IMG/VR virus record: IMGVR_UViG_3300022752_004849
Location: 1 to 40,929 of that record
DNA length: 40,929 nt
Reading direction: 5' to 3' (one strand)
DNA from: a virus
Below the pieces are notes generated by a model. It was given only the letters and a program-made list of their open reading frames with translations. It was not told the origin of the DNA and did no database searches. The position numbers and the translations under genes are program-made. Within the stretch, counting starts at the first letter, position 1, and each line of letters opens with the position of its first letter. Positions 14,785-40,929 of this stretch are shown here, one piece after another.

Positions 14785-15088
14785 AGTTGCAGCCGCCAAG
14801 GTTCAACAATATCTAACTAAAAGAGGTAAAGGTCTAGGCATCAAAATAGGTGTAAAAACCACTGGATGCAGCGGTCTGGCCTATGTTTTAGAATTTATAG
14901 ATAAGTTAGACGAAACTTTGGCAGTTTATGTATCTAATAAAACCATGATTTTTATTGATCCAAAACACCTACCATATCTTACAGGAATTGAAATAGATTG
15001 GGTAAAGCAAGGACTAAATGAAGGATTTGAATTTCGAAATCCCCAAGAAAAACATCGATGCGGATGTGGAGAAAGTTTCAATGTATAG
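14768..15088 (+). CDS. iscA: IscA-type Fe-S carrier
   Basis: A 106-residue A-type carrier of the IscA branch. Diagnostic phrases are GIKIGVKTTGCSGLAYVLEF, GLNEGFEFRNP and the terminal CGCGESFNV, with ligands C34, C98 and C100. It differs from the ErpA-type protein at 12215-12538, which ends CGCGSSFSI, so the phage carries one of each kind. The family accepts clusters from IscU and forms [4Fe-4S] clusters for aerobic delivery. It overlaps the upstream gene by 17 bases and the downstream gene by eight, so it is translated within the plus-strand operon. Confidence 0.93.
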   Translation: MVSISEVAAAKVQQYLTKRGKGLGIKIGVKTTGCSGLAYVLEFIDKLDETLAVYVSNKTMIFIDPKHLPYLTGIEIDWVKQGLNEGFEFRNPQEKHRCGCGESFNV

Positions 15089-16681: not shown

Positions 16682-17227
16682 CTATTTTTCACCTATAATC
16701 ATAAATCTTGAAAATTTCCAACTAGGATATTCAAAATTTAATTGCCCACTATAAACAATTTTATTCATAGGATAATGGTTAATGAAGTCTTTCAAAGAGC
16801 CTGAATAAATGTAATGATCATCGTGGGGCATATTATTACCTTGTAAAACTAACTTTGTACCATAGGGAATATTATCAAACCATTCTTTTGTTTCAAAGTG
16901 TTCTGTGGCTGTATTAATTATCAAATCTACCTGAGGAAAAATCTTATTACAATCACCTGTAACTGCCTTAAATGTCCAGTCTCTCCAAACATACAATTCG
17001 TTTATTTTGTCGGCTATCGGCTCGCAACAGGGGTCGATGTCTATGCTTCTTATTTTATGTATTTTAAACTTGCCACGTGATAATAATAAAAAAGCAGCGA
17101 TTCCATACCATCCTGCATAAATCCAAGCCTCGTTCGCTGACCATTTTGTTTTTTCCAGTTCTTCACATAGCCATATTTTACTGCCTATTTGCCCACTTGC
17201 AAAAGCATCCCAATTAAATTGATTCAA
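16682..17227 (-). CDS. Class I SAM-dependent methyltransferase-like protein
   Basis: A 181-residue protein with a degenerate Rossmann methyltransferase pattern. Its glycine loop is in AWIYAGWYGIAAFLLL. The acidic end of beta-2 is SIDIDP. Further on are VTGDCNKIFP and DLIINTATEHF, the position of motif IV. Substrate unknown; last gene of the 18-kb radical SAM/glycosyltransferase island, so small-molecule, sugar or peptide methylation are all possible. The start is TTG at 17227, because an in-frame stop lies just upstream and no ATG is available. It overlaps the epimerase end by 14 bases. A structural or non-catalytic role cannot be excluded. Confidence 0.6.
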   Translation of the reverse strand: MNQFNWDAFASGQIGSKIWLCEELEKTKWSANEAWIYAGWYGIAAFLLLSRGKFKIHKIRSIDIDPCCEPIADKINELYVWRDWTFKAVTGDCNKIFPQVDLIINTATEHFETKEWFDNIPYGTKLVLQGNNMPHDDHYIYSGSLKDFINHYPMNKIVYSGQLNFEYPSWKFSRFMIIGEK

Positions 17228-18170
17228 TTTGATTCTTTATCCAATTGTAGGTTTCAGCCAGACCAACATCTAAATTGTCAGAAGGCTCCCAATTTAAATA
17301 ACTTCTAATTAAAGTATTATCACTGGTTCTTCCTTGCACACCTTCTGGGCCTTCAATATTATTGATAGTTAGAGATTTACCTGATAAATTTATAATTTTT
17401 TGAGCTACATCGTTAATTGATATAAGTCTAGATGATCCAAGATTTATAGGTTGTGATATTTGACTACTCATTATTTTTTCTATACCGGTTATGCAATCCA
17501 CAATATATAAAAATGTTCTTGTTTGATTGCCATTACCCCAAACATCAATAGTACTAGTCTCTTCTATAACCTTCCTACATAAAGCGGCGATTACTTTTTC
17601 TCTACCTCCTCTATATGGGCTTCTTGGCCCAAATACATTATGTAGTCTAGCAATTTTTACATCAATATTATGTGTTCTAGCGTATGAAAGATAGAGCCTT
17701 TCTGAAAATAATTTTTCCCAACCATATTCACTATCTGGATTGGCGGGGTAAACAGTGTCTTCAGCACAATTTGGATTCAATGGGTCTGTCTGATTAACCA
17801 AGGGATAAACACAGGCACTACTTGAAAAAAATATTTTCCTACAAGAACTATACGGTAATTCTTTCAATATATTAAGATTAATTTGAGCATTATTTGTAAC
17901 TATTTCTGCGTCATGTTGTCCAGAAAAAATATATCCTGCTCCTCCCATATCAGCTGCGACCTGATAAATTTCATCGTAATTGTTTCTTAGAATCTGTGTT
18001 ACTTTTTCAGGTTGCCTCAAATCTACCATCATCCATTTATCTGCATTAGGGTAATTCCATGGAGGTGTTTTAATATCTACAGCATCTACATAATGACCCA
18101 ATAATTTAAATCTTTCAACCAAATGAGAACCTATAAACCCTCCTGCACCGCAAACTAATATTCTTTTCAT
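17214..18170 (-). CDS. GDP-mannose 3,5-epimerase-like SDR
   Basis: A 318-residue extended short-chain dehydrogenase/reductase. The NAD-binding glycine motif GAGGFIG is at residues 8-14. The catalytic Tyr149 and Lys153 lie in YGWEK, and Ser117/118 in FFSSSACVYP. It also carries both acid/base residues of GDP-mannose 3,5-epimerase: Cys120 (SSACVYP) and Lys192 (GGREK). Their separation of 72 residues equals that of Cys145/Lys217 in the plant enzyme. Further family hallmarks are WGNGNQTRTFLYIVD, INLGSSRLISI and GPEGVQGRTSDN. The predicted reaction converts GDP-D-mannose to GDP-L-galactose or GDP-L-gulose, giving an L-sugar donor. The start overlaps the B12 radical SAM stop by four bases. Confidence 0.85.
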   Translation of the reverse strand: MKRILVCGAGGFIGSHLVERFKLLGHYVDAVDIKTPPWNYPNADKWMMVDLRQPEKVTQILRNNYDEIYQVAADMGGAGYIFSGQHDAEIVTNNAQINLNILKELPYSSCRKIFFSSSACVYPLVNQTDPLNPNCAEDTVYPANPDSEYGWEKLFSERLYLSYARTHNIDVKIARLHNVFGPRSPYRGGREKVIAALCRKVIEETSTIDVWGNGNQTRTFLYIVDCITGIEKIMSSQISQPINLGSSRLISINDVAQKIINLSGKSLTINNIEGPEGVQGRTSDNTLIRSYLNWEPSDNLDVGLAETYNWIKNQIESI

Positions 18171-20380
18171 ATTTTTTTCCTTTTGGACAATTGAGATAAA
18201 TCAACAATAAAATCATTAGCGGATTGAATTTTTTGATCTGAAACAACGGTTTGATATTTAGAAAATCCGCTCCAATCACCACTTTCCCTAAACTTGTATT
18301 TAAACGTAAAGTCAACTGTTTTATTCAAAATAAATTCTTCTTGCAATAATTCTGAGAAGTCTCTGTCACTTCTACCTGTTTCTAAATCCCATATAGGTTT
18401 GGCCAATCGTCTAGCCCTTTTGGCAGTGTTGCTCATTAATCGACTGTAATCTTGTGCGTAAAAAGGTCCTTTTCTACCCCTAGGAGGAGGTAATCTATCA
18501 TCATAAGGATTATCAATTTGTTTAAAATTGATATCAAAATCTGCTGACCATTTACCTTTTTTGTTTATTTGAAAATTATATACAGCACTTAACATTCCTG
18601 GACCAAATTGTGAACCGAACTCCCTTAGATCGATATCTGGATTGAATTTAATGCTGGCCTTATACCCTCCTCTGGTTAGCCAAAGCATACGGAAAAAGGG
18701 CCACATTTCATTCACCAAGGTATCTGCAAATGGATTAACGTTGGTTTTGATTATTTCATAATTAAATTTTTCGTACTCTATTTCTCTTACAAAATTGGGA
18801 TCTTCTAGTTCTATTTTATAGTGCTCTCGAGCCAAATTCATCCTAATAGGATAGGCAAACCTAGATTCAGTAGTACCTCTCATCATATCTAAAAAGATAT
18901 GAAAAGTTTTGACTCTGATCATAACATGAGTACCGCCTTTGGTAAAGTCTTTGGTTATCCAATGACCTTGATACTTTTGCCAACTTAAATTAAACTTATC
19001 CGGGTTTTGGCCTGTGATTGTTTCTGGTCCTTGGGCAAACCCTACTCCTGCCCCCACATTGTTGATATTCATGTTTCTCATACGCCAGAGGAACGTCATA
19101 CTATCAGCAAAATCTTGAAAATCCTCTGTTGGAAATCCCACGATCCAGTTAGTAGCCGCCCATATTCCTACAGCCTTACCATCACGAAAATTTTGTTCCA
19201 TTTCAGCAATGGTCACACCTTTATCCATATGGTCTAAAACTTTTTGGCTACCGCTTTCTATACCATAATTAAACATTATGCAACCACCAGCAGCAAGATC
19301 TTTAAAATATTCCAAGTCCATTCTGCCATCACATCTAGCATAACCTGTCCATTTAATTTTTAAACCTTTGGCCGCTACTGCTTTACAAAATGCTCTGAGT
19401 TCTTTTAGATTACCATTTACCAAACTATCTATGAACCAAATTACATCAGTTCCTTTATTGTAATATAGCCATTCAATTTCTGATATAAGATCAACCGCTT
19501 GCCGTTGTCTATATTTCCAAAAATGTGTTTCTTCACAGAATGTACATTTGGCTGTGCATCCTCTACTAATTTCTGTATTGACTCCATTAGGTAGGTCGTA
19601 TAGGCTAAAATCTAGGCTTTCATAATCTGGCATTGGAAGTCCATTTATGTTCACACGTTCGTCTTCAGGTTGCTTGAGTATTCTAGGGTATTCAACTTTT
19701 GTGCCTTGTTCTATTTCGTCAAGCATGACCAGCAAATTGGCCTCCCCTTCTCCTACGACCACATAGTCATAATAGTCTTGAATGGCAAACCAACTTTTAT
19801 GAACATTAGGACCCCCGACTGCTATCTTGATATGAGGTGCTCTACGCTTGATCTCCTGGGCCATCCATTTTGTTGGTTCTTCACTGATGTAATACATAGA
19901 AAACCCAACAACCTGTGGTTCTTTTTCTATAATTTCATCTATGGCTTTTGTTAGTATAGGTTCAAGCACAGGGTGAATATCTTTTAGATATGTATCCCCT
20001 AGCCAATGCCAACTGGCGCTAGGGTCCCACAACCTAAAAGGTATCTTTTTATTAGGTATCCAATCGTCTTGATGTTGTCTATAGGCCTTGACATTTAAAT
20101 CCATAAGAAAAGTTTCATAACCAGAACTTTTAGCCACACCGCCTAGCCTGGCCAAACTAAAAGGAGGCATATAAGGACTCCACTCTGGACACAAAACTAA
20201 TACTAACTTGGTCTTTCTTGTCTTATAGTCTATGTATACAGGTGTTAGGTTCTTTTGTACGGTAGGTTTAGCGAAAGGTGCGATGGCATCCATCATACTC
20301 AAGTGTCTTGCATCCGCATCGTTAGGCCGTTCATGAGGTTTTAAATCCTTGACAGCTAGATGTCTAAGAGTGAAATCCAT
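18167..20380 (-). CDS. B12-binding-domain radical SAM enzyme
   Basis: A 737-residue protein. Residues about 55-230 form a cobalamin-binding-like Rossmann domain (KLVLVLCPEWSPYMPPFSLARLGG, VVGFSMYYISEEP, IKIAVGGPNVH, YVVVGEGE). The classic DxHxxG is replaced by DLNVKAY, so cobalamin would bind without a protein His ligand. The radical SAM core follows with C275, C279 and C282 (SRGCTAKCTFCEE), then WFIDSLVNG, FNYGIESGSQKVLDHMDKG and NWIVGFPTE. About 250 further residues form a C-terminal domain of unknown role. B12 radical SAM enzymes commonly methylate unactivated carbon or phosphorus or rearrange rings. Substrate unknown. It overlaps the upstream gene by 17 bases and is followed by the epimerase. 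Confidence 0.85.
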   Translation of the reverse strand: MDFTLRHLAVKDLKPHERPNDADARHLSMMDAIAPFAKPTVQKNLTPVYIDYKTRKTKLVLVLCPEWSPYMPPFSLARLGGVAKSSGYETFLMDLNVKAYRQHQDDWIPNKKIPFRLWDPSASWHWLGDTYLKDIHPVLEPILTKAIDEIIEKEPQVVGFSMYYISEEPTKWMAQEIKRRAPHIKIAVGGPNVHKSWFAIQDYYDYVVVGEGEANLLVMLDEIEQGTKVEYPRILKQPEDERVNINGLPMPDYESLDFSLYDLPNGVNTEISRGCTAKCTFCEETHFWKYRQRQAVDLISEIEWLYYNKGTDVIWFIDSLVNGNLKELRAFCKAVAAKGLKIKWTGYARCDGRMDLEYFKDLAAGGCIMFNYGIESGSQKVLDHMDKGVTIAEMEQNFRDGKAVGIWAATNWIVGFPTEDFQDFADSMTFLWRMRNMNINNVGAGVGFAQGPETITGQNPDKFNLSWQKYQGHWITKDFTKGGTHVMIRVKTFHIFLDMMRGTTESRFAYPIRMNLAREHYKIELEDPNFVREIEYEKFNYEIIKTNVNPFADTLVNEMWPFFRMLWLTRGGYKASIKFNPDIDLREFGSQFGPGMLSAVYNFQINKKGKWSADFDINFKQIDNPYDDRLPPPRGRKGPFYAQDYSRLMSNTAKRARRLAKPIWDLETGRSDRDFSELLQEEFILNKTVDFTFKYKFRESGDWSGFSKYQTVVSDQKIQSANDFIVDLSQLSKRKKI

Positions 20381-21487
20381 TTTTTAACCTTTCAATTATA
20401 TGACTTACATCTGTTAAACCTAATTTAGGATTATTCATAATCCAATTATAATTGTGTTCTACAATAGGTTCAACGTTACTTAACCAATTAATCCATTCAC
20501 TGTCGCTAAAATTATATAATCTCTTAGTCTCTTGAACGATTAATTTTATCCTTTTTTCATCGTCTTCTTCTAAGTCATAAGATTCATCTATGTAAGGCTC
20601 AAAAGTTTTTAACCCCAATGATCTTAAATTTTTTAAAAATCCAGGAACGCTTAGTATTATAAAGGGATGTTTCATTATAACTGGTTTATATGTTTTTTCT
20701 GTTATAAAGATACCCGGTACATATGATCTACTTTGAAAGTCAAACCTATCGCTGAAGTATAAAGTTTCTGTAACAAGGCTGAAATATGTATCGTTGTAGA
20801 TAAATTCATCATCCTTATCAACCCATATTGGATTTGACTTTTGAGTTGAAGAAGCATTGACATGCATTGGAAAGAGGTTTTTATTATCTCTTAATCTTGA
20901 AGCATACTCTGGATATTTTATTTCAACAGTCTGACACAAATTTTCAAACCAAGTGAAGTCATCTTGCCAGCCACCATAAAAACTAGTAATAGATCTATCT
21001 AATAAATTATTTGTAATTAAATCTGCGAGCAACATTGCCCTATGTGCCCTATGATTTTTGTTAAGACAATTAAATATTTTTGGCTTTTTTTTAATTTCAA
21101 ATTTTGGCTTAGCTTTACCTGCCTTGACGACGTCTGCATATATATTTGTTGTTAATAATATAAAATTGTAAGGCAGATTTAGACTTAATTTAATAGTGTC
21201 AAAATCATTTTCTGCATTAATTGAGCCGGTAACCAAACAAAAATCATTTTTATCGAGTTGAGCAAGTTGTACAACATTAAAAATTTTTTTACACTGATGT
21301 TCTGTTAAAGCTTCAGATCCATCAAAAAAAACAACAAAAGGTTTTTTTGAACTTTTTATCCTATTGGCCAAATCTCGGTCTGATCTTTCGAAAAATCCTA
21401 TAGGAGATCCTGCAGAAATATTATAAATTTTTTCTTGATATTGCGCTAACTCAGGATAAATCCTAAAAAAAGGATTATACTGCTCAT
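20364..21487 (-). CDS. Glycosyltransferase-like protein (copy 2), possibly needing a -1 frameshift
   Basis: The uninterrupted frame carries the family blocks NKNHRAHRAML, YFSLVTETLYF and FITEKTYKPVIMKHPFIIL, and overlaps the downstream radical SAM gene by 17 bases. The first usable start in this frame is a TTG at 21371 (335 aa). However, the same frame stays open and protein-like for about 40 codons further upstream (YPELAQYQEKIYNISAGSPIG), without an ATG. The natural ATG at 21487 directly follows the dehydrogenase stop (TAAATG) but is in the +1-offset frame. The two join by one -1 slip at a T TTT TTA heptamer, giving about 374 aa. Either a programmed frameshift or a one-base homopolymer error would explain it. 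Function is inferred as for copy 1. Confidence 0.6.
21464..21470 (-). promoter_or_regulatory. Candidate -1 frameshift heptamer U UUU UUA
   Basis: Read on the minus strand from the ATG at 21487, the codons are ATG AGC AGT ATA ATC CTT TTT TTA. The last T of CTT plus TTT TTA form a correctly phased X XXY YYZ slippery heptamer. A one-base backward slip continues as AGG ATT TAT CCT into the long frame. No clear downstream pseudoknot was worked out. Confidence 0.35.
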
Positions 21488-22693
21488 TTATATTTTTTTT
21501 TTGATCCTAGAATTACCATAATGGATAAAGGGTCCTTTATAAATTTCAGAGGTAATAAATCTCCAAGGATCAATTACAACGGATTGATCATTAATCACGT
21601 TATTTTTAAATAAATCTTCAACCCAAGATTCCCAATATCCTATAAAAAATAGTTTATGTTTTGTTAGATCAATATAGTCATTTGTATTGATATCGTAATA
21701 TGATACAGATCCGCCTAGACTTTCTATGTAATGACCTATCAATAAACTATAACTTCCATTTAAATATGGAACACCTGGTTTATAGGCTTTACCTATTATA
21801 CAAACATCACCGCCATATTTTAAGATAAATTCAGCTTTACGCTTTGCTTGTGCTTCCCTTGCCACCATTATGCTATCAAAAAGATCGTATTCTAGTCCCA
21901 AGCGTTGTCCCAAATATCTTAGAGCTATATTGTCTCTAGGATGGCACGCTCCCCCATCTCCCATTCCAGCCTTCATGTAGGCCGAACCCATAATTCTATG
22001 AGTGCTTTTTGCCAATGCATTTGTAACCACATCTACATTTATATTACCATTTGTTTCTGCTACATCTTGAATCATATTAACAAGGCTTAATTTAGCACTT
22101 ATAAATGTATTGTAAAATATCTTAATTGACTCTGCCTCATCCCAAGTTCCTACTTCATACCTGGGATCATTTTGCATAAACTTTTTGTAAAAATTTATAA
22201 GTTCTTCGGCTTCTCCGTCTATGCTACCATCTTCTGTTCCAATAATAACCATTTCAGGATTTACCATATCCCATTTAATGGTTCCCATAGCAATCAAATA
22301 GGGATTATATATAAATCTAGAATTTGTAATACAAGGTCTTAATTCATTCCTTACCGTACCAGGTAATACGGTACTAATAAGCACCACCATTTGGTTATAG
22401 TTAGAATATTTGTTTATTTCCGTTAAAATATTTTTAACAATATTATAATCAAAATCTTTATTAGGTAAATGACTTGTAGGAGTTTCACCGCCGTATAAAG
22501 GATCGTGAGGTGTAGGAGCTGCAACAAATATCAAATCTCTATCTTTTATGGCCTGTTCTATGGAGTCAACCATAGGAAAATTTTTAGGACATCTAAATTC
22601 TACATCATACCCAACCACATCATAGTGCTCTGCCATAACTTCAGCGCAGTCTTGTCCAAGTTTCCCAACTCCTATCATAGCAACTTTTTTCAT
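21488..22693 (-). CDS. UDP-glucose/GDP-mannose dehydrogenase family protein
   Basis: A 401-residue nucleotide-sugar 6-dehydrogenase homologue. The N-terminal Rossmann motif is MIGVGKLGQD (residues 6-15). The central helix has Lys191 and Asn195 (ESIKIFYNTF), and the catalytic cysteine is C250 in GMGDGGACHPRDN, with Asp254. The C-terminal UDP-binding-like domain has IGKAYKPGVPYLNGS. Family members oxidise a sugar nucleotide twice, using NAD, to a uronic acid through a Cys thioester, so UDP-glucuronate or a GDP-mannuronate-like donor is likely. It lacks the usual GxGYVG tyrosine, so the substrate is uncertain. It begins one base after the stop of the gene starting at 23771. Next to an epimerase and glycosyltransferase-like genes, it fits a sugar-donor pathway. 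Confidence 0.85.
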   Translation of the reverse strand: MKKVAMIGVGKLGQDCAEVMAEHYDVVGYDVEFRCPKNFPMVDSIEQAIKDRDLIFVAAPTPHDPLYGGETPTSHLPNKDFDYNIVKNILTEINKYSNYNQMVVLISTVLPGTVRNELRPCITNSRFIYNPYLIAMGTIKWDMVNPEMVIIGTEDGSIDGEAEELINFYKKFMQNDPRYEVGTWDEAESIKIFYNTFISAKLSLVNMIQDVAETNGNINVDVVTNALAKSTHRIMGSAYMKAGMGDGGACHPRDNIALRYLGQRLGLEYDLFDSIMVAREAQAKRKAEFILKYGGDVCIIGKAYKPGVPYLNGSYSLLIGHYIESLGGSVSYYDINTNDYIDLTKHKLFFIGYWESWVEDLFKNNVINDQSVVIDPWRFITSEIYKGPFIHYGNSRIKKKI

Positions 22694-22694
22694 T

Positions 22695-23771
22695 TTAATC
22701 TCTGATAAATTTTATTTTCTTTATTTTAATTGCATTATAGTAGGCAAAATTCAAGGTCAACTCTAGATGCTTGTTTTTTTCTAAAAAATCTAAAATTTCC
22801 GGGGGCCAAGAATTTAGATCATTTAAAAAATTTTCTAAATGTACCTTATTTCTTTTTGTCTTTTCTTTAGTTAGTTCTTTTAATTCTCTTAGAGGATATT
22901 TTTGAATATTTTTAAAATTTTGAGCAATAAGATCGTATCTTGTTTCCATATCTGAAACATTATCGAAACTATAATCAAATATTTCGTCATATAGTTCAAA
23001 ACCATAATCACTCAGCATTTTATGATATCCTTGACATCCTGATACAAGAAATGGCTTGTTTGTAACTATTGCAGAGATACATTTTTCAGATATATACAAT
23101 TGATTAAAACTACTTTCAGTTACCAACTGAGCATATGAACGTTTATAGTGAATTGGAAAAATTCCACTCCATCCTAATTTACCTTCAGGCATATCGTCTA
23201 AAATTAAAATTTTAGGATTCCAATATTTCCAAGGATAATTAAAAGTATCTTCTAATTTTCTACCTTCGTAACCTCGCCAGCTATTCCAACTCACAGCATT
23301 ATTTTTTATAAGATCGTGTTTAGCTAACATATCCATTTGTGTACATCTATGCCAATGGGGTTTACTATTCAAGCATATAAATGAAAATTGTAAATCTAAA
23401 TTCCAATTATCAACATAATGATCAAATAATGTATCTGTATGTTCTAGGGAAAATATCTCATGTCCAAGGATAGCATGAGCACCTAAAATTGTTCCGTAAT
23501 AAGGAAATTTTATAATTTTAAGATTGCCATAACGAGGATTATCTTGATCGTGCATTAAAGTTTGCTGCTGACTAGAACCTGTAATTATTTCTAAAGAAAT
23601 TCCTTTTTCTACACAATAATCATTTATTTTATCAAAAACATCCTCTCTGCCAAATAATCTAGTATATTCAAACTCTTGCCAATCTATTATTATTATTTTT
23701 GTTGCACTAGACTTTTGATTCTGAAGTAGTTCATATGATCCGGGAACGGCAGTAAAAATTAATATCTCCAT
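22695..23771 (-). CDS. Glycosyltransferase-like protein (copy 3)
   Basis: I start at the ATG at 23771 (MEILIFTAVPGSYELLQ, 358 aa), because an upstream in-frame codon at 23852 would overlap the previous gene by 64 bases. Family blocks: NSKPHWHRCTQMDML, AQLVTESSFNQLYISEKC and NKPFLVSGCQGYH. It aligns along its length with the next gene upstream (copy 4). Shared phrases include GYHxML, GFxLYDEIFDYSFD and a variable turn after KPHxHRC. They are therefore tandem duplicates. Block 3 has SEKCISAIV where other copies have TEKTxKP. AATAAATA lies five bases before the ATG. Function inferred as glycosyl transfer; no membrane segment. Confidence 0.65.
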   Translation of the reverse strand: MEILIFTAVPGSYELLQNQKSSATKIIIIDWQEFEYTRLFGREDVFDKINDYCVEKGISLEIITGSSQQQTLMHDQDNPRYGNLKIIKFPYYGTILGAHAILGHEIFSLEHTDTLFDHYVDNWNLDLQFSFICLNSKPHWHRCTQMDMLAKHDLIKNNAVSWNSWRGYEGRKLEDTFNYPWKYWNPKILILDDMPEGKLGWSGIFPIHYKRSYAQLVTESSFNQLYISEKCISAIVTNKPFLVSGCQGYHKMLSDYGFELYDEIFDYSFDNVSDMETRYDLIAQNFKNIQKYPLRELKELTKEKTKRNKVHLENFLNDLNSWPPEILDFLEKNKHLELTLNFAYYNAIKIKKIKFIRD

Positions 23772-23776
23772 AAAAA

Positions 23777-23784
23777 TATTTATT
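23777..23784 (-). promoter_or_regulatory. Late-promoter-like box AATAAATA, 5 nt before a start
   Basis: On the minus strand AATAAATA (7/8 match) is followed by TTTTT and the ATG at 23771. It lies in the 17-base gap after the stop of copy 4. Spacing matches the other boxes of this class. Confidence 0.3.
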
Positions 23785-23788
23785 CTTG

Positions 23789-26824: not shown

Positions 26825-27785
26825 TTTTTTGAAATTTTGGAATAATAATATCTGTGCCACAGTGGCAGTGATCTTTTCTACATACAATTTTCTTTGGGCC
26901 AACTTTAGAAATATCATCAAGGATATGTCCTATATTATCAACCTGACCACAACTAGCTAGACTTACTCGACCGATTGGATTAATAAAAATAGCGTCGCCT
27001 ACATTACAAATCCAATTTCTAAAAAAATTCTGTCGTTGAACAATAATATCATTACTATTGGTCGCATTTAATGACCCGTCTGTATATCTACTATAACTCA
27101 CTGTATTACTGGATTTGTAAGGTTTTTCTTTAGAAAAAAAACTTTCTATACTATGACTTTCAAGAAATTCTATCTTTTTTAGATCTGAATATTTCCAAGG
27201 TCCTGCATTGGTCGTCATTTCATCAAACAATGGAGTCCACTCTATAAAATAATTAGGCATAACTTTCTTTAAATGATTACCGTATTCTACTACTTCCCAG
27301 AACCTTTCCTCGTGCATCAACATTTTGGTACAAAGGTAATTTATTTTATCACATAAAAAAACATTAACATCTTGATATTTCTGCTTGTCTGCAAATTCTA
27401 TATGAAAACTAGCCACCACATCGTCAAAAAGTTTATAATGCTTCTCCCACCAAGCCAAGGGTCTGCTTAGATTCGTATTCACTGCAAGAGTGGCGTCAGG
27501 AAGTTTTTCTCTTAGCCATTGGCAAATTGGAATAAAATTTTTCCAGGCAGTAGGTTCTCCACCACTAAAAAAGAATTTAAAATGACGATAATTTTTATGT
27601 TGATATTTGTCAATTATAACACCAAGATTTGCTAGATATTTTTCTAGGTTGCCATCGTTACGATCAGTACCACTCCAATTACCTGGATTGCAATAGCTGC
27701 ACTTGTAATTACAGAAGTTATTTACTTGCCAAGTAACAGCCAAATAAGGCTCTGGTGCCTCAATGGCTATAAGCTTTGTGCCCAT
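26811..27785 (-). CDS. Radical SAM enzyme with C-terminal SPASM/twitch-like cysteines
   Basis: A 324-residue protein with the radical SAM triad near its N-terminus (C25, C29, C32 in NNFCNYKCSYC) and the SAM-binding FFFSGGEPTAW. The C-terminus has a cysteine-rich auxiliary-cluster region: WICNVGDAIFINPIGRV, LASCGQ, and VCRKDHCHCGTD. This is the standard order (core first, SPASM-like second), unlike the four upstream paralogs. Such enzymes often modify peptides or sugars through auxiliary [4Fe-4S] clusters. It overlaps the upstream radical SAM gene by 19 bases and the downstream glycosyltransferase-like gene by 14. Substrate unknown. Confidence 0.85.
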   Translation of the reverse strand: MGTKLIAIEAPEPYLAVTWQVNNFCNYKCSYCNPGNWSGTDRNDGNLEKYLANLGVIIDKYQHKNYRHFKFFFSGGEPTAWKNFIPICQWLREKLPDATLAVNTNLSRPLAWWEKHYKLFDDVVASFHIEFADKQKYQDVNVFLCDKINYLCTKMLMHEERFWEVVEYGNHLKKVMPNYFIEWTPLFDEMTTNAGPWKYSDLKKIEFLESHSIESFFSKEKPYKSSNTVSYSRYTDGSLNATNSNDIIVQRQNFFRNWICNVGDAIFINPIGRVSLASCGQVDNIGHILDDISKVGPKKIVCRKDHCHCGTDIIIPKFQKNAIA

Positions 27786-29062
27786 TCATATACCTCGCGA
27801 AGTTCGGGAATAATGTCAACAATTTTTTCTCTTCGTATCTTATCCATTTCATCATTATATTCTATAAATTCCAAAATGCCTTTCTTACTTTCTTTACTGA
27901 TATGGTTAGCAAAAATAGCACTGCCCTGCATCAAATTATTTTGGATTAAGGCAAATCCATTTCTTATATGCTCATTGTGATAATATTTGCTTCTATATAT
28001 CTGATATTTATAGATAAGTACCTGTTTAATTTTATCTGGTAAAATCTGAATATTCGACCACCAAGGATTTGTAAGAAGATTTATTCTAGGCGGAACAGAT
28101 TCGCTTATCAAATTTTGTCCCAATAGATATTCAAAAAATTTTGGATAGGTAAAAACATTGTAGATGCTGATAGTAGGTGTAATGCCGAATTCTGCGTGAG
28201 GAATTTCCTTCTTAATCAGTCTTATATTATCTTCTATTATCTCCCAGTCTGTACCTTTTCTGATGAGTTCTGCTCTATCACCTAGATCATCTAAACTTGC
28301 CCAAATCTTTATCTTTGGAAACTTCTTCCATAATTCTACAAGATCTTTTTGTTTAAATTTTAAACTCCCAAAGTTTGTTGTATAGGTTAAATCAACCTGA
28401 CTAGTTAGATTGTTATTAATCCAATATTCTAGGCTGTCATAATGTTCTTGAGTTTGTAGACTTTCGCCCCCGGCAAAATAAACCTCTTCCACATCTGCTA
28501 GATAAGGTTCCAACATTTCAAAAAACCTACCATCTTCATTAACAGATACCATTGTGGATTTCATTTTAAAGTAATTAAATAAAGCCTGTGATCCTTTTCT
28601 TTTTTGGACAAATTCTTGTGCATGAAGGCTGCTGCACTCAGGACCACAGGTTCGACACTTCATATTACAAAGGTTACTAAACCTAATGTCCATATATTTC
28701 ATTTTAAACTGATCTATGCTGCCATCTTCATTTGTATCATCAACCAAATCAATATTTGCCAAACCTTTCATAGAATTATGGCTTTGACGCATAGTCCAAG
28801 TTCCAAGATCTTCTAGTTCATAACATCTGCGGCAGGCTTCTACTGGTTTATCATAAAGCATTTCTACACGCATCTTTTTGTATTCTTCAGTGTTTAGCAT
28901 ATTGATTATGGATTCATGTTCGGATGCTGAGGCAACTGGCTTGGAACTATCTGCTACACAACAAGGCATGACCTTGCCATTAGGCCAAGCATGAAAGTGT
29001 ATCCATGGTAATATACAAAAATGTTTGCCATTTTTTATGAGATTTTCAACATAACTGCTCAC
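27767..29062 (-). CDS. SPASM-first radical SAM protein (paralog A)
   Basis: A 431-residue protein. Its N-terminal 85 residues look like a SPASM/twitch auxiliary-cluster domain: C16 in HFCILPWIHFHAWPNGKV, C34-C35 in MPCC, and C77/C80 in CRRCYELE. The radical SAM core follows with C132, C136 and C139 (FSNLCNMKCRTCG) and the SAM-binding VYFAGGESLQTQEHY. The order auxiliary domain then core is reversed from typical SPASM enzymes and matches proteins annotated as twitch-domain radical SAM in phages. It starts with GTG at 29062, two bases after... no overlap with the upstream stop at 29064, behind AGAGGATTT as ribosome binding site. One of four tandem paralogs. Substrate unknown; peptide modification is plausible. 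Confidence 0.85.
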   Translation of the reverse strand: MSSYVENLIKNGKHFCILPWIHFHAWPNGKVMPCCVADSSKPVASASEHESIINMLNTEEYKKMRVEMLYDKPVEACRRCYELEDLGTWTMRQSHNSMKGLANIDLVDDTNEDGSIDQFKMKYMDIRFSNLCNMKCRTCGPECSSLHAQEFVQKRKGSQALFNYFKMKSTMVSVNEDGRFFEMLEPYLADVEEVYFAGGESLQTQEHYDSLEYWINNNLTSQVDLTYTTNFGSLKFKQKDLVELWKKFPKIKIWASLDDLGDRAELIRKGTDWEIIEDNIRLIKKEIPHAEFGITPTISIYNVFTYPKFFEYLLGQNLISESVPPRINLLTNPWWSNIQILPDKIKQVLIYKYQIYRSKYYHNEHIRNGFALIQNNLMQGSAIFANHISKESKKGILEFIEYNDEMDKIRREKIVDIIPELREVYEWAQSL

Positions 29063-29063
29063 G

Positions 29064-30281
29064 TTATAAATCCTCTAGATCTTTTAGTTCGGGAAAAGTT
29101 TTTAAAAAACTTTCTCCTCTAATTACATCAATACTTTTTGTATGTCTCCAGAATGTTTCCTTATTTTCTTCCCAGGTATCTTGCTCGTTGGTAAAATTCA
29201 CAGCATCTTTTATTAATCTCTCGAGAAGAGTACCTTCACAATAATCTAAAAATCTTAGATGTTTATTTTTAATACGCTTTTTTAATAACCTAGGTAAACT
29301 TGTACTAGAATAATGAGATGGATTAACTGCTAGGTATAAACTATGATACCAGTCTGATGGTTTTATCAAACCCATATTAATCATGTATTCATAAAACTTA
29401 TGCAAAGTCATAAAGTTAAAAATGCTAAGAACAGTGTTAATCTGAAAATCTACAAAATCAAGTTTTCTAAATAATAAAAGGTTACTTTCGACTTCACCCC
29501 AATTAGTTCCATGCCTAATATATTCTGCTCGCGATCCATAATGATCTACACTACAACTTAATTCTATTCTTTTAAAATTTTTCCATAAACTCAAAATATC
29601 AAAATCTTTAAATTTTAGATTACTTGCATTTGTATTATATCTTAAAATAACATCAGTCTTATTTTTTCTAATCATTTCTTCTAGCAGAATGTAGTGTTCT
29701 TCTGTTATCAAAGGTTCGCCACCTGCAAAATATGCAAGATCTATATGATCAACGTGTGTTAATATTTCTTTAAGCAAATCATTTTTGCCGTGACCAGAAT
29801 GCCATAAGATTGGCAAATTCTTATCATACCTTCTATTTTCTTTAGCCCATTGGCTACTAAATTCACTGCCACAAGTACGGCATTTAAAATTACAGATATT
29901 ACTGAACCTAATGTCAAAGTACCTCATTTTGAAATCTGAAATAGAGCCATCTTCCTCAGTTTGCGGAACTAATTGATCAAAATACTTTGCAAAATTATCT
30001 TTACTATAATTTCTAAAGCTATGAGGTCCAGCCTGTTCATGTTTGTAACAAAACTCACAGATTTTACTAGGTTTTTCATTCAGCATATTAATCCTAAGCT
30101 CCTTCATTTTAGGATGATTAATAGCCTTTAATAATGTTGTATTAGCAGTATTGTCTATAGGATCACTATAGTCGTTACTGCAACAAGGATATATATCACC
30201 TTTTGGGGTCACGTTAAGGTGCAACCAAGGAAACATACAAAAAACTTTACTTTGTTGCAGTAAAAATGTTTTGTTTTTCAT
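29064..30281 (-). CDS. SPASM-first radical SAM protein (paralog B)
   Basis: A 405-residue paralog with C15 (VFCMFPWLHLNVTPKGDI), C33-C34 (YPCC), C75/C78 (CEFCYKHEQAG) and the radical SAM triad C130, C134, C137 (NICNFKCRTCGSE). The core also shows HIDLAYFAGGEPLITEEHY and SLWKNFKRIELSCSVDHYGSRAEYIRHG. It is closest to paralog C, sharing YKHE, the KMRYFDIRFxNICNFKCRTC block and LRYNTNxSNLKFKD. The start overlaps paralog C by 35 bases. The ATG at 30281 is supported because MKNKTFLLQQSKVFC aligns with the start region of paralog C. Confidence 0.85.
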   Translation of the reverse strand: MKNKTFLLQQSKVFCMFPWLHLNVTPKGDIYPCCSNDYSDPIDNTANTTLLKAINHPKMKELRINMLNEKPSKICEFCYKHEQAGPHSFRNYSKDNFAKYFDQLVPQTEEDGSISDFKMRYFDIRFSNICNFKCRTCGSEFSSQWAKENRRYDKNLPILWHSGHGKNDLLKEILTHVDHIDLAYFAGGEPLITEEHYILLEEMIRKNKTDVILRYNTNASNLKFKDFDILSLWKNFKRIELSCSVDHYGSRAEYIRHGTNWGEVESNLLLFRKLDFVDFQINTVLSIFNFMTLHKFYEYMINMGLIKPSDWYHSLYLAVNPSHYSSTSLPRLLKKRIKNKHLRFLDYCEGTLLERLIKDAVNFTNEQDTWEENKETFWRHTKSIDVIRGESFLKTFPELKDLEDL

Positions 30282-31521
30282 CAGATAATAATCCTGCTAA
30301 TTCTGGGAAAGTGTTTTCAAAACTTTCTCCGCGAAGTTTGTCCAATCTCTCGATTTCCTCTCTAAATTTTGATTTCTGTTTGAACCAAAGATCAAATGCA
30401 TAGATCCAATTTTCTATTTCTTTTACTTTAGGAACAGAATGCTTATGGAATTGACTTTGCTCCATTTCATAGGCTAGTTTTTTAATTCTTAATATAGTTA
30501 GATCTTTTAACTTTTTCGGTAGAATTTGACTAGTCAAGAATCTAGGATTATACATCATAAAAATAGGATGGCTGAGTTTTTTCTTTTTCCCATGCACTCC
30601 AATTTCTCTAAGATATCTAAAAAAATCATCTAATGTTAACGAATTAAAAATACTCATCACAGTTTGAAAATGTAAATCCACACTAGATTCTTCAGATAAT
30701 TCTATTAGATTTGATTCTACATTTGACCATTTAATTGTACCATGCCTTATGTAGTTAGCTCTGTCTCCGTAATGGTCAATGCTGGCATAAACCTGGACTG
30801 GTTTGTTAAATTGTCTCCATAACTCAATAATGTTTTTGTCTTTAAACTTAAGATTAGACAAATTTGTGTTATATCTAAGTTCAGTATCTTTTTTGTTCTT
30901 TCTTAATAGTTCTTCAAGGATAAGATAATGTTCTTCTGTTATCAAAGGTTCGCCACCTGCAAAATAAACACATTCCATGTTATCTACTTGATCTAAAACC
31001 CCTTGAATAAACTCTGGCTTGTTAGTTCCTTTTTCAAAATGGATGGGTATTCCTTGTTTACGATTTTCCTGCTCCCATTGACTACTATATTCAGGACTAC
31101 AGGTTCTACATTTAAAATTACAGATATTATCAAATCTAATATCAAAGTATCTCATTTTAAAATTCTTCAATGAGCCGTCTGGTTTGGTATCTTTTAAAGA
31201 TTCTGTGAAATATTGTCCGTACTCCTTGTTAACAGTATTACGAAAGGTGTGAATGCCTTCATCTTCATGCTTATAACAACTTACACAGGGTTTACTTTCA
31301 CGCTCATTTAGCATGTCTAATCTCAATCGATTCATCAGCGGACTGTTGACTATTTCCATCAAACTTTGTTTATGACTAGTTCCTACGATAAATTCAGGAT
31401 TAGCTATGCAACATGGCATAGCATCTCCAACTGGTTTGGTATGTATAGTAATCCAAGGGACCATACAAAATGTACGGCTTTTTTCTAAAAGAAATTTCTT
31501 CTTATCAGTATCAAATTTCAT
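30247..31521 (-). CDS. SPASM-first radical SAM protein (paralog C)
   Basis: I start at the ATG at 31521 (MKFDTDKKKFLLEKSRTFC, 424 aa), which overlaps the upstream stop by 11 bases. A longer frame from 31572 adds an unconserved hydrophobic stretch. Auxiliary cysteines are C19 (TFCMVPWITIHTKPVG), C37-C38 (MPCC) and C79/C82 (CVSCYKHE). The core triad is C134, C138, C141 (NICNFKCRTC), with VYFAGGEPLITEEHY. The C-terminal end has FRYLREIGVHGKKKK and LRGESFENTFPELAG; the ESFxxTFPEL motif recurs as ESFLKTFPEL in paralog B, suggesting a shared C-terminal element. Substrate unknown. Confidence 0.85.
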   Translation of the reverse strand: MKFDTDKKKFLLEKSRTFCMVPWITIHTKPVGDAMPCCIANPEFIVGTSHKQSLMEIVNSPLMNRLRLDMLNERESKPCVSCYKHEDEGIHTFRNTVNKEYGQYFTESLKDTKPDGSLKNFKMRYFDIRFDNICNFKCRTCSPEYSSQWEQENRKQGIPIHFEKGTNKPEFIQGVLDQVDNMECVYFAGGEPLITEEHYLILEELLRKNKKDTELRYNTNLSNLKFKDKNIIELWRQFNKPVQVYASIDHYGDRANYIRHGTIKWSNVESNLIELSEESSVDLHFQTVMSIFNSLTLDDFFRYLREIGVHGKKKKLSHPIFMMYNPRFLTSQILPKKLKDLTILRIKKLAYEMEQSQFHKHSVPKVKEIENWIYAFDLWFKQKSKFREEIERLDKLRGESFENTFPELAGLLSDEKQNIFTATK

Positions 31522-32893
31522 TTTTAGACCAACAGGAATTATAAAAATCTTCCATTTCAGGAAACGTAGCAATAAAATCAGTATTCCTTCTTTGATCTAA
31601 TTCATTAAACCAATTATAAAAATCCTTACGCCCTTCTAACAGCTTGTTTTTATCGTAATGCGTAGTTTCCATATAACTTACTATCCTTCTAAATCTTTCT
31701 AATTCTACCAGGCTAAACTTACAAGGATCTTCTTCGTTTAAATTATCTTGCATAAATTCTAGACAATTGTTCATATAAGTCAAATATTCTTTTGGTAAAA
31801 TATTGATGTCATATTGTAAAGGTTCTTTTAAATATGGAGTATCAAATCTTACCATTTGAAATTGATCAGTACGGTTATAAGGATTATATTTTTTACGCCA
31901 TTCTAAGATTTTCTCTAATAAGTCTTTAAATGTGGTAATACTAAGGATATTAAAGGTTATCATAAAACTAATGGGATGCCCTACCTTAGTAAGATATTGG
32001 TCAAGATTTCGTTCCCATAGACCAAGATCCAAGCCAGTTCTAATATATTCAGCTCGTGGACCCCAAGTATCTATACTAGTGAATAATTTAAAGCGTCTAA
32101 TAGATTTGTTTTCTATAAGACAATTAACCTGCTCTACAAGTTTATCCACCATTCCAGGTTTGACTCCTAGATTACTATTGATATTGAGTTCCAATTGGGG
32201 CTGAGGATCCTTCTTTATATCATCCAACAAATGCCAAGTGCTTTTATGCATTAAAGGTTCGCCGCCTGTGATTCTAAGAATAGTAAGACTTTTCTTTAGG
32301 TCAGGCCACCAATCCCACCATGCGTTGACATATGGATTATCTTCTTCACGCTCATAAAGTTTAAAGTAATCAATATCACATCTGTGATTCTTTACAGTGG
32401 TAACAGGACCATGTTCTTTTATTTCGTTATAGAATCTGCTGCTGGCTTTGGGGTGACAGTAGCCGCATTTGAAATTACATTCATTACCAAAACTTATTTC
32501 TACATATTCGGGATTGACATTTCTATTCCATCTGCTGGCTGCAAGCCTCAATCTATCTTCTGTAAAAATTGTAGCACTTTTGATATGCCTATCGCTGATA
32601 TATGATTCTCCTAGACCTTCGATGTTCCAGCAATATTGACAACCTTTGGTCTGTACTCCATTTAACATTTCTCTGCGTTCAAATTTTTTATGCAGAGTAT
32701 TATGCAAAGCACTAGGATTCTCCTCTATTTCTTGTAAGTCAATTTTGTGAGGAGGTGGATGATAGCAGCTATGATTTTCCCCTGTCTGGAGATATAGAGT
32801 CACATGAAACCATTTGGCCAGACAAAAGCTCTTGCTAATACCATTAATTATTGGTATTACTTTTTGTATTCTTTGATGATCTGTGTCCGACAT
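31511..32893 (-). CDS. SPASM-first radical SAM protein, divergent (paralog D)
   Basis: A 460-residue paralog, the most divergent of the four. The auxiliary motif is C24 (SFCLAKWFHVTLYLQTG), C43 (SCYHPPP, one Cys where the others have CC) and C85/C88 (CQYCWNIEGLG). The core triad is C139, C143, C146 (NECNFKCGYC), followed by LTILRITGGEPLMHK and STWHLLDDI. The loss of one Cys may change auxiliary cluster number or ligation; His45 is nearby. The C-terminus repeats the family element FIATFPEMEDF. The start overlaps the GT-A gene by 50 bases, but no other Met precedes the required SFC motif. Confidence 0.8.
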   Translation of the reverse strand: MSDTDHQRIQKVIPIINGISKSFCLAKWFHVTLYLQTGENHSCYHPPPHKIDLQEIEENPSALHNTLHKKFERREMLNGVQTKGCQYCWNIEGLGESYISDRHIKSATIFTEDRLRLAASRWNRNVNPEYVEISFGNECNFKCGYCHPKASSRFYNEIKEHGPVTTVKNHRCDIDYFKLYEREEDNPYVNAWWDWWPDLKKSLTILRITGGEPLMHKSTWHLLDDIKKDPQPQLELNINSNLGVKPGMVDKLVEQVNCLIENKSIRRFKLFTSIDTWGPRAEYIRTGLDLGLWERNLDQYLTKVGHPISFMITFNILSITTFKDLLEKILEWRKKYNPYNRTDQFQMVRFDTPYLKEPLQYDINILPKEYLTYMNNCLEFMQDNLNEEDPCKFSLVELERFRRIVSYMETTHYDKNKLLEGRKDFYNWFNELDQRRNTDFIATFPEMEDFYNSCWSKNEI

Positions 32894-34700
32894 TTTTAAA
32901 AGGATATAGTTTCTTAAAGTAATTTTCTAGAAAGTTATAATCATTGATTTGTTTGATGTTTTTTTGTTTCATAGCCCAGGATTGTGCGTCTTCGACTGCC
33001 CTAGCAGCCCAATCTGCATGATCTGCATCAAAATTGACATTTGCCCAAGCTCTCATTCTTTTTTGACTTTCTGCATCATTTTTAAAACTTAATTTTACAA
33101 CCTCTCTAAAAACACTGCGCCAGGTATGAAAACTACTTGTATTGAATCTTGTTTCATTACTTACCAATGGGATGACTTTCAATTTAGGACCTATACTTGT
33201 TGTGAGATCCGTGGTCCAAGTTTCAGCTTCTTTAACCAATTGAGTAGGAAACAACTTGACACCTCCGTATCCGTATTCAGAACTATTAAATGGATTTTTA
33301 CTATGCCAGACATACACACAATCTAGATCCCAAACACTAGGTTGAAAATCAAATTCAAATTTATTATCAATATAACAGTCGGCATCAACTACATAAAACA
33401 TACTGGTCTTGGCCAGTGATGCTGCCTTTTTATGTGCCTCTAGAATTCCTGTAATTCCTTTTATTCTTTTTGCAGCAGGACACTTTGATAACAGACGTTC
33501 GTAATTTTCATCTGCATTTGGTTCGTCATAACTGATAAAAAACACATCGTAATCTTCATTTATGTCAGGCCTTATATAACCCATAAATTTTTCTTGGCCT
33601 GTCTGTTTGATATATTTTTTAGCCAACCATACTCTTTTATTTTTTGTAAAGTTCGGACTGATATACCAGGTCAACACACTATCAAACTCATCGAGCTGCA
33701 TGTCATACTGGTTTACCATACTGATATCAAATTCAATATCAGGCATATCTGGATTAAATTCAATAGTAAAAGTTGGACTTATATTTCCTACCACCGTGTA
33801 ACCTTCTGGTTGATCAATAAATTTGACCTTTACTGCCCAAACATCATCACTTGCTTCAGGTAAGTGCTTTCTGTCAAGATAATAAATGTTTTCATAGGCA
33901 AAATCCTGAAAATGAATATTGGAAAAATCTACTTCAAAATTTATTTCACCCAGTTGGTCATTATAGATCAATTGTGGTTCAGGTGTAATACTACCCAACC
34001 ACTTCCATCCTTTGGTTTGTCTATAGGTTGGTTTTACCTTGACCAACCATACTTCTTCTTCGGCACCTCCACAATGACTGGGATCAAGATAGTAGGCACA
34101 CTCATAAGCCAAATCCCAATAGGGTGGTAATGCTCCATCAAGATCAACTCCGTCGTAGGGCACATCAGGATTCAGGCTGACCTCAACTTCTGGAATAAGG
34201 AAACCCATTTCCTTAATTCCTAGACTTTGTTTCCCTAACACATCACAACTCATTACCCAAACTTTATCCTCAGAAGGATTAAACTGAGGATCTACATACC
34301 ATACCATAGTATAGTCAATATCCCATGGTTCTGGTTCAAAATTTCCAAAAGGACTTTCTATAAAAGTCATAGATTGATCAATATCTGGATTTTTCCTCCA
34401 CATCAATTGTGGAGGTTGTATATCAATTTCTATATAGCCAGTTTCTGGTGTCCAATCTTCATAGAATAATTTGGCCACCCACTGATCTCTATAGGTCCAA
34501 ATAATACATTCTCCTTGATTTTCTGGAATTTCGGTTATATAATATGCAACCTTGACTTCTACTTCAGGATTGAGTACAAAACATAAAGCATAAGGTCCTA
34601 TGAGCTCCTGCAATTCTATATCATATAATTCAGGATCGTCCTTCCATTCTACAGATCGAACCTGTTCTTCTCTCAATTTAGGAAATCTATCTATGAACAT
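32844..34700 (-). CDS. GT-A-like glycosyltransferase with N-terminal tandem repeats
   Basis: A 618-residue protein of a family common in T4-like cyanophages. Residues about 90-370 hold at least four imperfect units of roughly 60-70 residues, each of the form WDxxYxxxYYLDPxxxxxxxVWLVKVK...GxIxPE...NPD. Examples are WDIDYTMVWYVDP, WDLAYECAYYLDP and FAYENIYYLDR. The C-terminal part is GT-A-like: FFISYDEPNADENYERL, KRIKGITGILEAHKKAASL, the metal-binding DAD motif near residue 440 (YVVDADCYID), VYVWHSKNPFNSSEYGYGG and a terminal Trp-rich helix. It is the first gene of the island, behind a hairpin and TATAAT-like box. It probably transfers a sugar in the cytoplasm; acceptor unknown. Confidence 0.8.
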   Translation of the reverse strand: MFIDRFPKLREEQVRSVEWKDDPELYDIELQELIGPYALCFVLNPEVEVKVAYYITEIPENQGECIIWTYRDQWVAKLFYEDWTPETGYIEIDIQPPQLMWRKNPDIDQSMTFIESPFGNFEPEPWDIDYTMVWYVDPQFNPSEDKVWVMSCDVLGKQSLGIKEMGFLIPEVEVSLNPDVPYDGVDLDGALPPYWDLAYECAYYLDPSHCGGAEEEVWLVKVKPTYRQTKGWKWLGSITPEPQLIYNDQLGEINFEVDFSNIHFQDFAYENIYYLDRKHLPEASDDVWAVKVKFIDQPEGYTVVGNISPTFTIEFNPDMPDIEFDISMVNQYDMQLDEFDSVLTWYISPNFTKNKRVWLAKKYIKQTGQEKFMGYIRPDINEDYDVFFISYDEPNADENYERLLSKCPAAKRIKGITGILEAHKKAASLAKTSMFYVVDADCYIDNKFEFDFQPSVWDLDCVYVWHSKNPFNSSEYGYGGVKLFPTQLVKEAETWTTDLTTSIGPKLKVIPLVSNETRFNTSSFHTWRSVFREVVKLSFKNDAESQKRMRAWANVNFDADHADWAARAVEDAQSWAMKQKNIKQINDYNFLENYFKKLYPFKNVGHRSSKNTKSNTNN

Positions 34701-34735
34701 AATTAAGTTAGTGTTTTACTTAATTATACTAGAAT
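34701..34735 (-). promoter_or_regulatory. Spacer with hairpin and TATAAT-like box
   Basis: The 35-base gap between the protease and the glycosyltransferase gene has AATTAAGT (34701-34708) and its exact inverse ACTTAATT (34718-34725), an eight-base stem with a nine-base loop. On the minus strand TATAAT occurs at 34728-34723 with no recognisable -35 element. It could separate transcripts; the stem is entirely AT except one G-C pair, so it would be weak. Confidence 0.3.
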
Positions 34736-37741: not shown

Positions 37742-37742
37742 G

Positions 37743-40872: not shown

Positions 40873-40873
40873 C
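40854..40873 (+). repeat. Short direct repeat, copy 1
   Basis: This 20-base element (GAGAAA-A-ACCCC-GCTGTAGC) covers the stop of the oxygenase gene and recurs 36 bases later with one mismatch (A40860 versus T40896). Confidence 0.55.
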
Positions 40874-40889
40874 CCAGATGTACCTCAGG

Positions 40890-40909: not shown

Positions 40910-40915
40910 AGTTCT

Positions 40916-40921: not shown

Positions 40922-40929
40922 CTGAATTT

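Follow-up and report, generated by a model that had tools for sequence, protein, structure and literature searches.

A conserved cassette of radical SAM and nucleotide-sugar genes in uncultured phages, likely to build an unusual sugar for the virus particle

Radical SAM enzymes were called "highly unusual" in phages in a description of Campylobacter phages (PMC2853527). In that work, the T4-like phages CP220 and CPt10 were found to possess a run of five radical SAM genes together with an amidinotransferase, as an interchangeable module. Polysaccharide/carbamoyltransferase clusters of jumbo cyanophages contain NDP-sugar enzymes, several glycosyltransferases and carbamoyltransferases (PMC7824862), and Synechococcus phage S-SCSM2R (PQ898602) combines glycosyltransferases, a DegT-type gene, one radical SAM gene and 2OG oxygenases. 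Consecutive radical SAM genes, with 22% identity to rSAM3 (see below), occur in Vibrio phages K566/K567. In the literature, no named system was found which matches the cassette described here; most likely, the cassette serves to make an unusual sugar and to link it to the virus particle.

The window, i.e., the whole stretch of 40,929 nucleotides of the IMG/VR virus record IMGVR_UViG_3300022752_004849, contains an island of 15 genes at positions 16682–34700 (Table 1). A first-pass annotation had proposed this island with a single direction of its genes, and both its extent and direction were borne out by the positions and strands of the open reading frames; its count of thirteen genes was not, since its own list sums to 15. 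The island is real: all ORFs of gene size between 34700 and 16682 lie on the minus strand, almost all genes overlap, and neighbours overlap or sit within 1 b, the sole gap being 116 b. The content comprises a GT-A protein, four N_Twi_rSAM proteins, a fifth radical SAM protein, four paralogous proteins of predicted GT-B fold, a B12 radical SAM enzyme, a UDP-sugar dehydrogenase, a GDP-mannose-3,5-epimerase-like protein and putative SGNH-like and methyltransferase-like ORFs. The true start of GTa is probably downstream of the listed TTG. The subtilase-domain protein beyond GTA, which shares phrog_9158 with a tail connector, occupies the place held by virion structural genes in relatives. An assembly chimaera, considered due to a rise of GC at 36–41 kb, is not favoured; relatives of the ORF at 39432 occur close to the cassette on other contigs. 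No enrichment of the T4 late promoter motif TATAAATA was seen (3 matches, 6.3 expected), which gives no support for a late unit; scans for sigma-70 promoters and terminators were at chance level.

Table 1. Features of the cassette and of the adjoining upstream gene, with positions in the window
Feature	Position	Strand	Evidence
GTA: N-terminal beta repeats, C-terminal GT-A glycosyltransferase domain (predicted), DxD	32844..34700	-	predicted fold
rSAM1, twitch radical SAM	31511..32893	-	NF033640 306 bits; 7 Fe-S Cys 41/41
rSAM2, twitch radical SAM	30247..31572	-	NF033640 349 bits; tree; Cys 35/35
rSAM3, twitch radical SAM	29064..30281	-	NF033640 360 bits; BtrN twitch match E 2.6e-4; Cys 36/36
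rSAM4, twitch radical SAM	27767..29062	-	NF033640 357 bits; Cys 43/43
rSAM5, radical SAM, Cys-rich C-terminus	26811..27785	-	PF04055 E 3e-7, over cut-off; Cys 44/44
GTa, GT-B-family protein	25640..26920	-	family profile E 2e-69
SGNH-like protein, putative	24853..25647	-	GCSFT motif by eye; relatives in 72 loci
GTb, GT-B fold glycosyltransferase-like	23789..24853	-	model pLDDT 85; VIA Z 10.8 T4 BGT, 9.6 GT10 FucT
GTc, GTb paralogue	22695..23852	-	35% identity to GTb, E 2e-50
UDP-sugar (nucleotide-sugar) dehydrogenase	21488..22693	-	phrog_9148 E 1e-97; PF00984 + PF03721 over cut-off
GTd, GTa paralogue	20364..21371	-	36% identity to GTa, E 1e-38
B12rSAM, B12-binding radical SAM enzyme	18167..20380	-	PF04055 + PF02310 over cut-off; CX3CX2C 52/52
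GDP-mannose-3,5-epimerase-like SDR	17214..18170	-	E 2e-77 to GME
Methyltransferase-like ORF (MT), putative label	16682..17227	-	homologues beside B12rSAM in several contigs
Subtilase-domain protein, upstream of GTA	34736..37741	-	PF00082 E 8e-20

Five radical SAM genes had been listed besides the B12 type, and five were found, although not of one kind. Four are members of N_Twi_rSAM (NF033640), with 306–360 bits at a curated cut-off of 170 bits; rSAM5, with 36 bits, is not a member and was recognised by PF04055. The B12 label was confirmed by both of its domains, which raises the total to six. In alignments, the Fe-S cysteines of each enzyme were invariant across 35–52 lineages. All six proteins kept the CX3CX2C cluster motif throughout the aligned lineages, together with five C-terminal cysteines in rSAM5 (44/44 lineages), and the four twitch ligands (C-x17/18-C...C-x2-C) of rSAM1–4 were all present in 35–43 of 35–43 lineages. 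These twitch cysteines align with those of BtrN, the 2-deoxy-scyllo-inosamine dehydrogenase of butirosin synthesis. Judged by sequence, the twitch domain of rSAM1–4 would be of the BtrN type, with one predicted auxiliary cluster. This aminocyclitol dehydrogenase is the nearest solved twitch protein, by a weak match in one domain: the four cysteines are in register (E 2.6e-4), but the match spans only about 70 residues, and the domain is C-terminal in BtrN and N-terminal in the cassette enzymes. To our knowledge, no substrate is known for N_Twi_rSAM enzymes; in bacteria, their genes have mostly more radical SAM genes as neighbours, and few sugar genes. In a tree, rSAM2 is a fast-evolving sister of rSAM3, and it is absent from some lineages; B12rSAM is the most conserved gene of the cassette (median identity 71%). 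Fe-S genes were rejected as a core part, since of 18 carrier records only four had IscU, and in one of these four it was in fragments that scored below the cut-off.

For the proposed GDP-mannose epimerase the top match was indeed GDP-mannose-3',5'-epimerase (E 2e-77, vs. 8e-31 for the next SDR epimerase family), the SSAC and GGREK motifs, in the regions of the catalytic Cys and Lys, are retained, and the protein probably belongs to this family. The nucleotide-sugar dehydrogenase label is supported as well, by a PHROG match and by Pfam matches of the NAD-binding and central domains; E was 1e-18 to UDP-glucose dehydrogenase, and TIGR03026 gave 138 bits, which is below the NDP-sugDHase subfamily score of 189.8. 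A GT-A enzyme is supported by the predicted fold of residues 379–521 of GTA (pLDDT 85; VIA Z 11.3 to B4GALNT1 and 11.0 to ThuS), where the DxD motif is invariant. The four glycosyltransferase-like copies form one family (profile E 3e-64 to 2e-101) and are assigned to the GT-B glycosyltransferases, GTb by its predicted fold (Z up to 10.8, the top-ranking structures all being GT-B enzymes) and the other copies by family profile. Among these structures, GT10 fucosyltransferase (Z 9.6) is tied with T4 BGT; an E...TEK motif was noted, and no sequence match to the GT10 family was obtained. PDB sequence searches with GTb and GTA profiles yielded nothing convincing. The SGNH and methyltransferase labels found no backing in Pfam, NCBIfam or PHROG profiles; DUF6071 is matched by related cassette proteins.

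A search for the same gene set in other phages, proposed earlier as a check, recovered the cassette from no fewer than 26 distinct lineages of uncultured phages, the largest carriers being T4-like jumbo phages of 335–364 kb. The order rSAM1-(2)-3-4-5 was unbroken and on the same strand in 21 of 21 lineages with both ends in view; thus, the arrangement is far beyond chance. Radical SAM and sugar genes were closely linked in all lineages. Identities were mostly 56–71% in the radical SAM core (46% for rSAM2) and 24–40% for GTA, the GTs, SGNH and MT; glycosyltransferases and tailoring genes vary, and sister cassettes contain a StrB1-like amidinotransferase, a DegT aminotransferase, a carbamoyltransferase, RmlC and a sugar C-methyltransferase. 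We take a full-length match with Asp, His and Cys catalytic motifs as the mark of a StrB1-type inosamine amidinotransferase; the enzyme of the relatives, which the window lacks, would be of this type (E 6e-64 to 1bwd; FDAAN, HxDST and GGGFHC aligned). Among isolate phages, tblastn with rSAM1, rSAM3, rSAM5, GTA, GTb and B12rSAM yielded weak matches or none, and a cassette core of this kind was not found in the isolates searched. A match in a Rhodobacteraceae MAG (L136, 61%) had phage gene order and was rejected as bacterial; it is probably a misbinned phage. Catalysts of the radical SAM type are costly and sensitive to oxygen; since a block of six was kept at such identities and in fixed order by so many uncultured lineages, what it makes must be of importance to the phage.

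There is good support for the claim that the island provides most of what is needed for making, altering and attaching unusual sugars, from the epimerase, the dehydrogenase, five GT-fold proteins and the tailoring genes of sister cassettes. We give roughly even chances to a soluble phage pathway which uses radical chemistry to rebuild host GDP- and UDP-sugars and which glycosylates virion proteins. Host nucleotide sugars would be taken over at first, as homology suggests, with GDP-D-mannose being converted to a GDP-L-hexose by the epimerase, and an NDP-uronic acid being formed by the dehydrogenase. Dehydrogenation, epimerisation or deoxygenation of the sugar or glycan could then be carried out by rSAM1–4 and rSAM5, and methylation or a related step by the B12 enzyme. 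The GT-B-family proteins and the GT-A protein may assemble the modified sugars on a virion protein, most likely one of those structural proteins whose genes immediately precede the cassette in jumbo relatives. With transferases that vary around a constant radical SAM core, different phages would arrive at different final glycans from a shared sugar chemistry. It is perhaps conceivable, though unlikely, that jumbo T4-like phages encode a radical-SAM pathway of their own which leads to an aminocyclitol-like or guanidino sugar, and decorate their virion proteins with it, the core chemistry being constant and the transferases swappable; BtrN-type dehydrogenases, the DegT aminotransferase, the StrB1-type amidinotransferase and the carbamoyltransferase would fit, and the cassette of the window could be a version without the amidino branch.

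The first-pass annotation had left the choice between virion proteins and the host surface. Among jumbo relatives, the gene for a 4,908-aa virion structural protein, along with other ORFs of structural type, immediately precedes the cassette and is read from the same strand, a support by guilt by association only, and no membrane helix was found in any cassette protein. Ten carrier records (three of 335–364 kb; most carriers are fragments) were without PF02397 (initiating transferase), PF01943 (flippase) and PF00483, the first two being the export families covered; the membrane initiating transferase and flippase expected of a Wzx/Wzy-type surface polysaccharide locus were thus not seen. Indirect as it is, this evidence leans to virion proteins, and the host surface is less favoured. 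An effect of the cassette on the LPS or capsule of infected cells, which would keep out other phages or prevent self-adsorption to debris, appears rather improbable, although the cassette recalls serotype loci in its variable transferases and modifying genes and host export machinery could still serve. Soluble transferases can act on host lipid-linked glycans too. Such remodelling is the published reading for the sugar clusters of jumbo cyanophages (PMC7824862).

Direct modification of virion proteins by the radical SAM enzymes (epimerised, cross-linked or methylated residues), with the sugars as a separate layer, is a doubtful proposition. Peptides are the substrates of many twitch/SPASM radical SAM enzymes, B12rSAM has weak similarity to PhpK and RiPP methylases, and structural genes are upstream; but the twitch domains point to one auxiliary cluster as in BtrN, vs. 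two in classical SPASM proteins, and sugar genes accompany the core throughout. The cassette also leaves no space for a precursor ORF, in agreement with the earlier view that a RiPP pathway is less supported. Glycosylation of phage DNA by the transferases after radical SAM steps on bases is very unlikely: the fold of GTb is nearest to T4 DNA beta-glucosyltransferase, with fucosyltransferases next (9.6), but carriers had at most one thymidylate-synthase-family gene and no QueC over the cut-off, and the GDP-mannose epimerase and structural-gene position fit poorly. Little probability can likewise be given to a diffusible, aminoglycoside-like metabolite, which the amidinotransferase, DegT, carbamoyltransferase and BtrN-like domains of sister cassettes recall, since the key genes are absent from the window, no transporter-like membrane protein is present, and several transferases per cassette better fit a polymer- or protein-linked glycan.

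The cassette would give the twitch radical SAM family a testable pathway, would indicate that a glycan of the virion or surface has so far escaped description, and could serve as a marker for jumbo phages missing from isolate collections. From the described systems it differs in several respects. The amidinotransferase of CP220/CPt10 is only 24–26% identical to that of the present group, no match to rSAM1, rSAM3 or rSAM5 was detectable, and no glycosyltransferase is annotated in the stretch of CPt10 examined. For the jumbo cyanophage clusters, radical SAM is unmentioned and there is no fixed radical SAM core (PMC7824862). The inosamine amidinotransferase of S-SCSM2R is 61% identical to that of sister cassettes, but this phage has one small radical SAM protein only, and the core of rSAM1, rSAM3, rSAM5 and B12rSAM was not found there; the Vibrio phages are distant and without annotated sugar enzymes around their radical SAM run. 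The chemistry of the cassette is hardly seen among cultured phages; modules analogous to it have been described from Campylobacter phages and jumbo cyanophages.

Along its full length, the 18-kb island of the virus record (40,929 bases) proved co-directional, as the first-pass annotation had claimed, with all genes on the minus strand; the count is 15 genes, not 13. Neighbouring genes overlap or lie at most 1 base apart, with the single exception of a gap of 116 b. Four of the radical SAM proteins, rSAM1-4, are full-length members of N_Twi_rSAM (NF033640), scoring 306-360 bits at a cut-off of 170 bits, and rSAM5 is a separate kind with a Cys-rich C-terminus. B12rSAM possesses B12-binding and radical SAM domains, and it reached no curated equivalog cut-off. 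The epimerase matched GDP-mannose-3,5-epimerase (E 2e-77; next family 8e-31), and the dehydrogenase is, judged by its sequence, UDP-glucose-dehydrogenase-like.

Features of the window and of two related cassettes (L104, L072)
Feature	Position	Strand	Remarks
Cassette	34700 down to 16682	-	Order: GTA, rSAM1, rSAM2, rSAM3, rSAM4, rSAM5, GTa, SGNH-like, GTb, GTc, UDP-sugar dehydrogenase, GTd, B12rSAM, epimerase, methyltransferase-like (MT)
Two IscA-like ORFs (phrog_17776) and IscU scaffold (TIGR01999 over cut-off)	12215-12538, 13262-13645, 14768-15088		Beside the radical SAM cassette
Fifth GT-B-family copy	13633-14784	+	Flanked by IscU and an IscA-like gene; not part of the reported island
Second SGNH-like ORF	9482-10369		Near tail genes; DUF6071 match sub-threshold
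Inverted repeat ATAATTAAGT...AACTTAATTAT	34700-34736		Short; lies between subtilase gene and GTA (by eye)
GC rise	36000-40929		From 0.30-0.40 to ~0.50 at window end
ORF	39432		GT9-type transferase look, by eye
2OG-Fe(II) oxygenase	40204-40872
Repeat protein	L104:17973-22163		~20 tandem FDFSWHPDPTDPPYIY-type repeats
Repeat protein	L072:17203-22227		~20 tandem FDFSWHPDPTDPPYIY-type repeats

The paralogous proteins GTa-GTd and the fifth copy form one family, for which the databases yielded no sequence-family match. A predicted model of GTb (pLDDT 85, pTM 0.87) matched GT-B enzymes, namely T4 beta-glucosyltransferase (Z 10.8), fucosyltransferases (9.6) and many others (about 9); thus, a GT-B fold is shown at the level of prediction. 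In GTA, beta repeats at the N-terminus are followed by a GT-A domain (residues 379-521; Z 11.3) at the C-terminus, and the DxD of this domain is invariant among close relatives. The repeats look optional, since three of the jumbo-phage counterparts (23-30% identity) are of about 316 aa and start nearly straight with the GT-A domain.

The cassette, sought in other phages as had been proposed, was present in 26 lineages, obtained from two IMG/VR scans (> 100 loci) after collapsing near-identical ones. In all 21 lineages with both rSAM1 and rSAM5 in view, the order rSAM1-(2 and/or 3)-4-5 was found on one strand with no other gene family interposed, and GTA just ahead of rSAM1. On the downstream side, the presence of transferases, SGNH-like proteins, dehydrogenase and epimerase varies, and B12rSAM recurs. 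Median identities to the window were 71% for B12rSAM, 70% for the dehydrogenase, 66% for rSAM5, 64% for rSAM1, 63% for rSAM3, 56% each for epimerase and rSAM4, and 46% for rSAM2; glycosyltransferases, SGNH, GTA and MT were less conserved (24-40%). Radical SAM and auxiliary cysteines are kept in every lineage (35-52 lineages per enzyme). In a quick tree, orthologues of rSAM1, rSAM3 and rSAM4 clustered by position, with rSAM2 as a fast sister of rSAM3, which makes them separate old functions rather than recent copies.

N_Twi_rSAM exceeded the cut-off in 48 of 48 records (1 to 21 copies each) and in none of 14 control genomes; usually 4-6 matches occur, with 21 in record G034 (77 kb; L163-L166) and 13 in G022 (L167-L169). 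The carriers of 335, 361 and 364 kb (metagenome contigs, sizes as assembled) encode a T4-type gp23 (E 2e-97 or better), which makes them T4-like jumbo phages. Ahead of the cassette in the jumbo records stand a giant virion structural gene (4,908 aa as seen; phrog_10938, E 3e-151), a 206-aa ORF, two ORFs of structural type and two that are GT-like; several cassettes extend past B12rSAM into genes for DegT, amidinotransferase, 2OG oxygenase, carbamoyltransferase and a protein of long repeats. Repeat proteins of 1,400-1,700 aa, without family match, terminate the cassette in several phages. The window differs, having a subtilase-domain protein ahead of GTA, and a CwlJ-type hydrolase and Fe-S genes after the cassette. 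The latter could serve as Fe-S cluster source, although IscU occurs in only 4 of 18 carriers.

Sugar chemistry, as had been supposed, is likely; of the two targets considered, virion glycosylation is favoured over remodelling of the host surface. No membrane helix was detected in any cassette protein of the window or its homologues (> 1,000 tested) by a hydropathy test which does detect adjacent lysis-type and small membrane proteins, and initiating transferases (PF02397) and flippases (PF01943) were absent from ten records. These absences, and the placing of the cassette after genes for virion structure, make a soluble acceptor, for example a virion protein, the likelier one. A soluble transferase can, however, also use host lipid-linked glycan. 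DNA as acceptor is unsupported, with no record having more than one thymidylate-synthase-family gene and QueC never above cut-off.

The nearest solved relative of the rSAM3 profile is BtrN, an aminocyclitol dehydrogenase, via the twitch domain, with four cysteines in register. An amidinotransferase of sister cassettes resembles StrB1 inosamine-phosphate amidinotransferase (E 6e-64, catalytic motifs kept); other sister cassette genes encode carbamoyltransferase, DegT, RmlC, sugar C-methyltransferase and TPP-type proteins, and the window contains none of these. Absence of PF00483 nucleotidyltransferases from ten carriers suggests host NDP-sugars as feedstock.

Arrangement, conservation and breadth of the cassette appear undescribed in the literature searched, and a search with six query proteins did not turn up the GTA-rSAM1-5 core in isolates. 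Bdellovibrionota MAGs contain many N_Twi_rSAM genes, one MAG grouping rSAM1-, rSAM4- and rSAM5-like genes; Bacteriovoracaceae MAG G058 (L177, L201, L216-L221) showed 32 matches, often as adjacent pairs. The kind of cassette is already known in outline: Campylobacter phages CP220/CPt10 possess five radical SAM genes and one for an amidinotransferase as an interchangeable block (PMC2853527), jumbo cyanophages clusters of polysaccharide and carbamoyltransferase genes (PMC7824862), Vibrio K566/K567 a run of radical SAM genes, and Synechococcus phage S-SCSM2R a glycosyltransferase/DegT-type/radical SAM/amidinotransferase cluster, whose amidinotransferase shows 61% identity.
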